Positions 5,985-8,900 of a DNA stretch of 64,000 nucleotides are shown here, one piece after another; the stretch's first letter is position 1; every line of letters starts with the position of its first letter. The notes beneath the pieces were generated by a model, which had not been told where the DNA came from, did not search any database, and saw nothing but the letters and a program-made list of their open reading frames with translations. Made by a program: the position numbers and the translations under genes. This DNA is from Symbiodinium natans. Lineage: Eukaryota; Sar; Dinophyceae; Suessiales; Symbiodiniaceae. Location of the stretch: contig CAJNDS010002202.1 of the NCBI GenBank assembly GCA_905221605.1, positions 455,501-519,500 on the forward strand, in the 5' to 3' direction.

Positions 5985-8900
5985 CTTCGTAGCCCAGTAG
6001 CCATGTTATAATAAGGGAAACCTTTTTTTTTGGTTGGTTACTTTATAAAAGATCACAGAGCAAAAAAAAGGGTACCACTGGGCTACCAAGGAGCAGGCGC
6101 ACGACCTTCACATGTCCACGTCGGCAGGCTACGCTCAGGCAAGTTGTGCCGTCATCATCTGCCGCATTCCGGTGTGCCCCAGCCTGCAAAAGCAAGCGGG
6201 TGACCTTCACCTTGGTAGCCCAGTAGCAAGGGAAACCTTTTTTTGGTTGGCTACTTTATTAAGGGAACCCAGAGCCAAAAAAAAAAAAGTAAAGGGTACC
6301 ACTGGGCTGCCAAGTCACCCTCCCAAAGAAGGAAGCTACCCACAGTGGAGTTGTACCCTCCATGCAGCTTGCCTCCTGTGCACCGCGAGCCGCCATACTA
6401 ACTGAGCCACCCCAACAGATAGCAGGGAAAGGCCTGCACCCTGCAATCCCACATGCAAAAGAAGCGGGAAGGTTTATGTACGCTGTGCGAAGGGATGCGT
6501 GGAGAACGTATACGAACGTGTATGCAGTTCACAGAATAACTTACAAGTTCTTGATCAGGGAAGAAAACTGGTAGGGCGTATTCCACTATAGAGCACTTAA
6601 GGGTTGACAAAGGGTACCCAAATCCAAAATTCCCTACTAAGAACCACTCAAACCCTAAAGCCCGAATTAAACCCTAAACCCTAAACCCTAAACCCTAAAC
6701 CCTAAACCCTAAACCCTAAACCCTAAACCCTAAACCCTAAACCCTAAACCCTGCATGGATCTCCTTGTTCGCACCAGCATCCAGAAGGACCCGCACCGCA
6801 TCCACCAGGCCATCTTCCGACGCGCGCGTCAAGGCTGTGTGACCCCAGGCATCCTGCCTGTCCTTGGGGTTTAGGGTTTAGGGTTTAGGGTTTAGGGTTT
6901 AGGGTTTAGGGTTTAGGGTTTAGGGTTTAGGGTTTAGGGTTTAGGGTTTAGGGTTTAGGGTTTAGGGTTTAGGGCTTAGGGCTTAGGCTTTAGGGTTAGG
7001 GTTGAGGGTTTCGGGATGAAGGTTTGGGGTTTAGGCTTATAAGCCCTGACACCCGTAACACCTAAACCCTGAAGGTTTGGGGTTTGAGGATTCAAGGTGT
7101 GGGGCTAGAAGTGGAGGTCTTTGCCGTTCCTAGACTCGGCAAGCCCAGTAACCATATTAGAACACTTTCTTTGTAAGGGAACCTTGAACCAAACAAAAGG
7201 GGAAAAATGGTACCACAGGGCTACCAAGTATAGAGTGCACGGGAACTTCTGCGGATCAAGCAGGAGGGTCTAGGGCTTAGGGCATACTATAGGGCTTGGG
7301 GCTCTTCGTACACATTCGTAGATACGCTTAAAAACAAGTGGGGTTTGTAGGGTTAGGGGCTAGTAGGGGTTATTTGGGGGCTACTTAGATATATAGGGGC
7401 TATAGAAGGTATATATAGGGACTATAGAAAGTATATATAGGGGCTAGTAGGTGTTATTTGGGGGCTACTTAGATATATCGGGACTATAGAAGGTATATAT
7501 AGGGGCTGAAAAGGGGAATGGGATTAAGGGTCTCTTCAAGGGGTCTCTCCTTTTACCCCTTAAGTAGGGGAAAACCTCCAATGCTTTATAACCAGTGGGG
7601 TTTAGGGCTTTTTTTTTGGGGTTTAGGGTTTAGGGTTTAGGGTTTAGGGTTTAGGGGAAAAACATCCCAAGGGCCCAAAACCGTGCGTCTACGGCCGCCC
7701 TGGCTTCGAGCAGCAGCCGCATCATGTCCAGCTGGCCCTCGCAGGCCGCGAGGTTCAGCATGCCCATGCCAAATCGCTCGTGGAATGCCTGGGTTTAGGG
7801 TTTAGGGTTTAGGGTTTAGGGTTTAGGGTTTAGGGTTTAGGGTTTAGGGGGCTCGAGGCTCATAGTGGAGCGCGAAGACTTTTAGAAGTTTGAAAACCAG
7901 AAGGTCATCTCTCCCATCCCCACCGGCCCCCCTCCACCGCCACCATACACCCTAAACAGTAAACCCCCTCCTGCCTGCATCTTAAGCAACTCATAGCAGC
8001 TAAGCGCAGAAGCTAAGCCCTGAATAAGAAGCATAGGGCTTTTCACTTCACGAGTAGCAGTCACCGCCATGGGCGATGATTACTCATAGCACGCTTCCTT
8101 GCAACCCAAACCTCCCTAAACCCTAAACCCTAAACCCTAAACCCAAAACCCTAAACCCTAAACCCAAAAAGCCAAAACCCAAAACCCTAACCCTAAACCC
8201 TAAACCCACACTAAACCCCACTAAGCCACAAAGGTGTCCGCCTAGTCGCCACCAATGCTGCCGAGCAGCCTCCTCATCAGGATCCTGCGGTTTCTGAAGT
8301 ATCTCTTCAACCTTGGGAACCAAATGGTTCGTATTAGGGTTTAGGGTTTAGGGTTTAGGGCTTTGGGTTTTAGGGTTAGTATCTCTTCAACCTTGGGAAC
8401 CAAAGGAACCCTAACATGGGGACCATTATACCCTCTACTGCTATAATCCTTATTAGGGTTTAGGGTTTAGGGTTTAGGGCTTAGGGTTATGAACCATCAA
8501 CCCTTTCAGGGTTCATCTGGTTCTCAAGGAGCTTGGGACACAGACCCGGTGATGATGGCCAAGTGAAGCTCATGGAGCTCAGACGCCGCAGCACCGGTGA
8601 AGCCCAGCAAGACCAACTGTAGGTCCAGGGGCGGATCCAAGCTCAAGTCATCCTCCAAGATCTCGGAACCTTAGTTAGGGTTTAGGGTTTAGGGTTTAGG
8701 GTTTAGGGTTTAGGGTTTAGAGTTTAGGGTTTAGGGTTTAGGGTATAGGGTTTAGGGTGTAGGGTTTGGGTTTAGGGTTTAGGGTCTAGGGTCTAGGGTT
8801 TAGGGTTTAGGGTTTAGGGCTTAGGGATAAGGTTTAGGGTTTAGGGTTTAGGGTTGCTGAGTTCACATGCCCCAAAAAAGTTTACACGTTCAGTTCTATA

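Follow-up and report, generated by a model that had tools for sequence, protein, structure and literature searches.

Inferred introns formed by an introner-like DNA transposon in an ankyrin gene of Symbiodinium natans, and the shared strand orientation of the element family

Can an intron be exactly one transposable element plus one copy of its target-site duplication (TSD), and would such a locus record the gain of an intron? The question is raised by an ankyrin gene on the minus strand of Symbiodinium natans, within the window (the whole 64-kb stretch of DNA that was analysed). The initial annotation had described a 104-bp element between two TCAC copies. This was borne out: copy A of a family here called INTR has terminal inverted repeat (TIR) ends, starting with CTTGGTAGCCCAGT and finishing with ACTGGGCTGCCAAG, and TCAC flanks it on both sides as a 4-bp TSD. 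The further claim that the intron equals the element plus one TSD copy agrees exactly with the sequence of 6211-6318, and we infer that this intron and a second one described below are spliced. In family orientation the TAACC end of element A comes first on the plus strand, and the ankyrin gene reads from the opposite end. The features at this insertion are as follows.

6211-6314, plus strand: INTR element copy A, 104 bp, identified by its TIR pair and an nhmmer match to the family model
6207-6210, no strand: TCAC, one TSD copy of element A, which in sense (GTGA) forms the first bases of the downstream exon
6315-6318, no strand: TCAC, the other TSD copy of element A, which in sense (GTGA) is the source of the inferred GT 5' splice site
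6211-6318, minus strand: inferred intron A, 108 bp, GTGACT...CTACCAAG; frame and Pfam ankyrin repeat regained on removal, two stops if kept

Excision of 6211-6318 on the minus strand fuses SFFGR to VKVTRLLL and regains the ankyrin frame, while the frame with element A kept meets two stops inside the element. Since 108 is a multiple of 3, retention would cause no frameshift and would add 36 codons, including the stops. A second INTR copy, B, absent from the initial annotation, lies at the next exon junction of the same gene. Its TSD reads GCTC in sense, giving an inferred GC-AG intron.

5985-6090, plus strand: INTR element copy B, 106 bp, with a TIR pair, an exact 4-bp TSD GAGC and an nhmmer match
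5985-6094, minus strand: inferred intron B, 110 bp, GCTCCT...CTACGAAG (GC-AG), made of element B and the TSD copy at 6091-6094; removal regains the frame, retention gives a frameshift and a stop
6319-6402, minus strand: ankyrin exon stretch before intron A, from the joined-frame translation and Pfam
6095-6210, minus strand: ankyrin exon between introns A and B, from the joined-frame translation and Pfam
5880-5984, minus strand: ankyrin exon stretch after intron B, from the joined-frame translation and Pfam

The gene model is partial, and the outer limits of the first and last exon stretches are those of the analysed sequence. Joined, the three stretches read TTPLWVASFFGR-VKVTRLLLQAGAHRNAADDDGTTCLSVACRRGHVKVVRLLL-QARASPETRDRHGTTNLQAA, and this 107-aa product matches Pfam Ank (E = 2.4e-16), which upholds the claim that removal restores the ankyrin frame, and Ank_4 (E = 5.6e-15). 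The Ank_4 match covers residues 21-70 and all 50 profile positions, spanning both junctions (that of intron A falls at 29/30). Two separate INTR copies thus sit in one gene, and the ankyrin repeat is regained at both. The locus had been called a complete intron-gain record. The insertion into a coding exon stands; the word complete goes too far, as splicing is inferred and a DNA search for an empty-site paralog of these ankyrin exons matched only the gene itself.

Element A is one of many related copies. Exact matches to the 13-mer tip number 3747+3734 across the 759-Mb genome, compared to 5+2 for the reversed pattern, and both perfect 14-mer ends stand 60-90 bp apart at 292 genome places, against 0 for the control. 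This excess indicates that the observation is real and that the element is a member of a repeat family, whose ends are CTTGGTAGCCCAG. When as many as 3 mismatches are allowed, the window shows no enrichment of the 13-mer (22 matches, where 31.7 are expected), and counts were therefore confined to exact or paired tips. A 32-base INTR end with at most 3 mismatches has 1233+1354 genome occurrences (control 0). The host is identified as a dinoflagellate by 104+101 exact genome copies of the spliced leader (versus 0). Its genome holds thousands of INTR copies, perhaps a few times ten thousand by a rough scaling of the 7481 exact tips from one window. The consensus of 111 bp folds into a long hairpin; of 40 perfect-ended copies, 38 went into it, L046 and L053 being omitted for a telomeric array at the centre. 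INTR thus has the features of a MITE (short, with TIRs, a TSD, a hairpin and no coding capacity). An autonomous partner was sought as two tips separated by 600-9500 bp and flanked by identical TSDs, and none was present in 264 kb, that is, 20 C1 loci picked for holding tips plus the window. We consider it very likely that INTR is a non-autonomous TIR DNA transposon of the introner kind, here inserted into a dinoflagellate ankyrin exon.

The window holds about ten INTR insertions and three exact 13-mer tips. Every retained INTR match is on the plus strand, the ankyrin gene being on the minus strand. Apart from A and B these matches are:

994-1104, plus strand: degenerate INTR copy (nhmmer, 46 bits)
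7142-7228, plus strand: degenerate INTR copy between two exons of the same ankyrin gene (nhmmer, 47 bits)
18313-18386, plus strand: partial INTR copy (nhmmer, 34 bits)
28088-28286, plus strand: INTR copy enclosing a telomeric-repeat array, TSD TCCT (tip pairing and nhmmer)
34311-34436, plus strand: degenerate INTR copy (nhmmer, 64 bits)
36186-36268, plus strand: weak, partial INTR match (nhmmer, 23 bits)
45777-46072, plus strand: compound INTR copy assembled from several partial units that all point the same way (tip pairing and nhmmer)
52967-53036, plus strand: weak, partial INTR match (nhmmer, 21 bits)

Loose tip pairs at 991-1104, 34311-34495 and 60002-60417 were rejected as clean TIR pairs with a TSD; those at 991-1104 and 34311 overlap degenerate INTR copies. 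A telomeric-repeat centre between intact INTR ends was seen in the window (28088-28286), in L046 (161-255), which lies in a PPR exon, and in L053 (161-264).

Copies in coding exons were sought among 134 tip-paired copies: 40 perfect ones (L029-L068), 23 in C1 loci (all 22 listed pairs, the listing being limited to pairs whose tips mismatch little or whose TSD matches, plus L019), four in the window and 67 from 76 further loci (L069-L144, nine of which were dropped as they had no tip pair). Eleven of the 134 lie in coding exons, seven supported by homology and four by codon usage (L073, L079, L110 and L111), and removal regains coding sequence at these exonic copies. The initial annotation had looked to intron boundaries as the place of genome copies; this holds for the 11 in recognised coding exons, all of which fit, and does not extend to the other 123, which lie outside recognised exons. 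L053 and L106 may be exonic too and were left out of the count.

Pfam scores exceed the curated cut-off at both window copies, at L046 (PPR) and at L021 (FNIP). Just below it are L023 (ubiquitin; 24.3 bits, cut-off 25.4), which is backed by paralogs, and L009 (LRR_2; 20.3 bits, cut-off 20.9). L011 has a RecQ-like motif recognised by eye and an exon 1 kb away that matches Helicase_C (23.0 bits, cut-off 23.5); its junction itself has no Pfam match. Junctions were tested with 10 of 111 frames and 10 frames of a second set, picked by eye, and at E values up to 1 nothing was found in nine of ten junction frames (L079, L106, L110, L111, L097, L119, L104, L140 and L142). The two sub-threshold matches of L073 (E 0.1 and 0.15) were taken as chance, and the four copies called by codon usage have no credible Pfam match. 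Pfam also returned nothing for four open frames of the window.

The codon model was trained on 917 codons from loci that include L009, L011, L021 and L023. Six copies score at least 7, and all of them fit (L111, L079, L011, L110, L021 and L073). Others rank low despite homology: L046 scores 4.5 and L023 3.6, and the window copies fall outside the 45 entries listed of 134. Sixteen of these 45 oppose the element sense; the highest-scoring of the sixteen, L034 and L064 (scores 6.9 and 6.5, TSDs TTAA and AGTA), have no homology support and were taken as noise.

Exonic copies differ from the rest in their target sites. In sense, all 11 exonic copies have a TSD whose first two bases are GT, GC or GA (2, 4 and 5 copies, respectively); three of these TSDs are imperfect (L011, L073 and L110). 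Among the 123 non-exonic copies, 50 have an exact TSD, and 11 of these 50 share such a start (Fisher p = 1.7e-6). Element orientation relative to the gene is also identical in 11 of 11 exonic copies. Exonic insertions with another TSD start or orientation were presumably purged. GC, GT and GA are among the predominant donors tabulated for Symbiodinium microadriaticum (PMC5177918).

Filled and empty sites can be compared at two other loci. L023 reads GCTC-element-GCTC inside a ubiquitin-like exon, and four paralogous exons on the same contig (L017, L021 and two in L018; 85.8-87.2% identity) are uninterrupted, with a single GCTC each. The L021 insertion lies within FNIP repeats, where 132 uninterrupted alignments cross the site, many of these coming from adjacent repeats in a single array. 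As a separate observation, ubiquitin-like and FNIP-repeat genes run on one strand through L015, L017, L018, L021 and L023 (C1, about 733-972 kb) and are apparently tandem paralogs.

These sites suggest how an insertion could become an intron. Staggered insertion at GTGA would have duplicated four bases, a duplication that is present in the sequence. The upstream TSD copy, in sense, would then supply the first bases of the intron (GT at A, GC at B and GA at some others), the element tip ...CTACCAAG would provide the AG acceptor, and the second TSD copy would open the next exon with a G. Once the element and one TSD copy are excised, the coding sequence is as it was before, and such an insertion would therefore be an intron from birth. 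The initial annotation had drawn the donor from the TSD and the acceptor from the TIR tip in the same way; the bases are as it stated, and the spliceosome would use them as splice sites. At the level of sequence, this model of a TSD donor and a tip acceptor is well supported.

Other repeats share this DNA. Interstitial telomeric arrays (at least 2 TTTAGGG or CCCTAAA units) are very dense and lie in both orientations, with a count of 268 for the 64-kb window and 956 for the 264 kb; a limited literature search turned up no paper on telomeric arrays of Symbiodinium. A MITE family, M2, is about 100 bp long with a TIR near TTGGGATGTTCCCCCTTATACTA and is unoriented (window 54117, L018 1214, L023 1726, L026 1847 and others). 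Another, M3, has a TIR near TACTTGGAGGTTCATGGTACTTA and is likewise unoriented (window 4833-5000 region, L024 6498, L019 8073 and others); one of its ends has 621 exact genome copies.

INTR copies are oriented beyond exons as well. In the 264 kb, neighbouring INTR insertions within a locus agree in strand in 25 of 25 cases, non-exonic copies included, compared to 3 of 7 for M2 and 2 of 8 for M3. Along C1 the INTR strand stays the same throughout long blocks and changes from one block to another. All 46 INTR insertions (55 pieces before merging, the only treatment applied) fit the strand of their block, compared to 8 of 19 M2 and 7 of 20 M3 matches (23 and 25 before removal of matches with a strand difference under 10 bits and merging of neighbours). 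Because the strand blocks were defined from INTR, the neighbour test is the fair one. Among C1/C2 pairs, 55 of 57 fit the block strand, and the misfits L098 (scores 19 and 15) and L133 (22 and 12) are poorly resolved.

The same pattern is seen in near-consensus INTR copies at 211 places on 140 contigs, among the matches listed (including the first 100 of 2587 and the first 100 of 280). Among these listed matches, agreement between neighbours is 8/8 within 20 kb, 15/17 at 20-100 kb, 26/29 at 100-300 kb and 11/17 at greater distances; two of the 50 listed perfect-ended places (C14 and C191) were omitted from the neighbour test as their orientation is unclear. For M3 the same distance bins gave 6/17, 11/20, 5/12 and 2/5 among the first 100 of 621 matches listed. 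Telomeric arrays in the 264 kb divide 486 to 470 between the strands, without bias. A general strand bias of repeats by gene block was rejected, M2, M3 and telomeric arrays being unoriented. Nor was this orientation lock put down to an insertion motif that differs between the strands, as no clear one was seen in the flanks of 50 copies; there is a mild T-A preference inside the TSD (TA in 24 of 50 exact non-exonic TSDs).

The blocks of constant INTR strand are likely gene blocks. Strong gene calls from codon usage or Pfam oppose the INTR model strand, as in exonic copies, at nine loci (L009, L011, L015, L017, L018, L021, L023, L027 and the window ankyrin gene), five of which also hold an exonic copy and five of which (L015, L017, L018, L021 and L023) form one tandem FNIP family. 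The gene-strand match at L027 is weak (E 0.006), and weaker codon segments, often of low complexity, point both ways (e.g., L019 and L013). Independent strand evidence is thin, which makes this reading likely rather than proven. As reported in PMC5177918, S. microadriaticum shows less unidirectional gene order than S. minutum does.

Two readings of the data would do away with either splicing or DNA transposition. The ankyrin locus could be a pseudogene disrupted by two MITEs and never spliced, in line with the partial gene model and the lack of an ankyrin paralog in the DNA search. Against this, the ankyrin repeat is continuous once the element and one TSD copy are removed at both insertions, both copies have GT or GC...AG ends, and exonic TSDs depart from random across the sample (p = 1.7e-6), so that we regard a pseudogene as improbable. 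Reverse splicing of intron RNA inserts sequence without target duplication. INTR TSDs vary between sites and match within each site, and the filled site of L023 carries two GCTC copies where each of its four empty paralogs carries one, which disfavours such a spread. Proposed for Micromonas introners in PMC3879977, where sense-only orientation is the argument made for it, it would account for the orientation of INTR and is nonetheless very improbable here.

The lock itself may come from selection or from insertion. Exonic copies are one-way and G-starting, and selection on splicing therefore exists. INTR might be spliced or tolerated in one direction only, with wrong-way copies lost wherever the DNA is transcribed; introns total 516 Mb in S. 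microadriaticum according to a table in PMC5177918, and most DNA of a relative is therefore probably transcribed. This explanation by purging has about an even chance of being right. It fits less well with the unconstrained TSDs of non-exonic copies (11 of 50 G[T/C/A]), whose orientation is equally strong, with the lack of orientation of M2 and M3 in the same DNA, and with the orientation of near-consensus copies (8 of 8 within 20 kb and 15 of 17 at 20-100 kb, among the matches listed). Because their TSDs are unconstrained, selection on donors does not explain the lock outside exons. The same non-exonic and near-consensus copies, and the 50 copies without a strand-asymmetric target motif, would be expected if the direction of transcription or replication fixed the orientation of each copy as it inserts, so that thousands of copies would follow the gene blocks whether or not introns result. 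We hold this second explanation only tentatively, at something like one chance in three: we know of no enzyme that acts in this way, and the TIRs are near-identical at both ends, so that the machinery would have to distinguish the inner ends.

INTR loci offer a clean comparison, with filled and empty paralogs, three TSD-derived donor types and non-exonic copies free of donor selection. If the lock is set at insertion, a DNA transposon would be tied to the direction of transcription or replication, which would help to explain the success of introners; such strand-aware insertion would make it pre-adapted for making introns, landing in the spliceable orientation. Under either explanation of the lock, the INTR strand may mark the direction of gene blocks from sequence alone.

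The initial annotation suggested that the family may be new; its kind is not, as PMC9860276 (Fig. 2B legend) describes elements of the same architecture from S. microadriaticum. Introners of that species have 4-bp TSDs and TIRs, with the 3' splice site lying in the TIR and the 5' splice site coming from the TSD, and its introner family 1 is alike to INTR by this description. A family 1 example of 115 bp, at LSRX01000224.1:86725-86839, equals the 111-bp INTR consensus plus a 4-bp TSD (PMC9860276), a length match that hints that INTR may be the same family. A text search of the literature with the INTR TIR strings gave no relevant match. Roy et al. (2023, Curr Biol), as summarised in PMC11453091, attribute many dinoflagellate introns to introners, and intron creation in dinoflagellate genomes would be common to these and INTR. 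The intron-gain mechanism is thus already known in the genus. The orientation lock of INTR is unexplained, and in the parts of the literature consulted no such lock was found described for introner copies outside genes.

Introner elements of Amoebophrya, as presented in PMC7789003, resemble INTR in having inverted repeats at intron ends and direct repeats of 3-5 nt at exon borders. Many Amoebophrya introns have non-canonical ends (PMC7789003); the inferred ends of INTR introns are GT, GC or GA...AG. Micromonas introner elements are in the sense orientation only, as INTR is, and the account in PMC3879977 places them in transcribed regions only and argues that they move by reverse splicing. Unlike them, INTR has TIRs and site-specific TSDs, which point to DNA transposition, and most of the INTR copies examined lie outside recognised exons yet are oriented.
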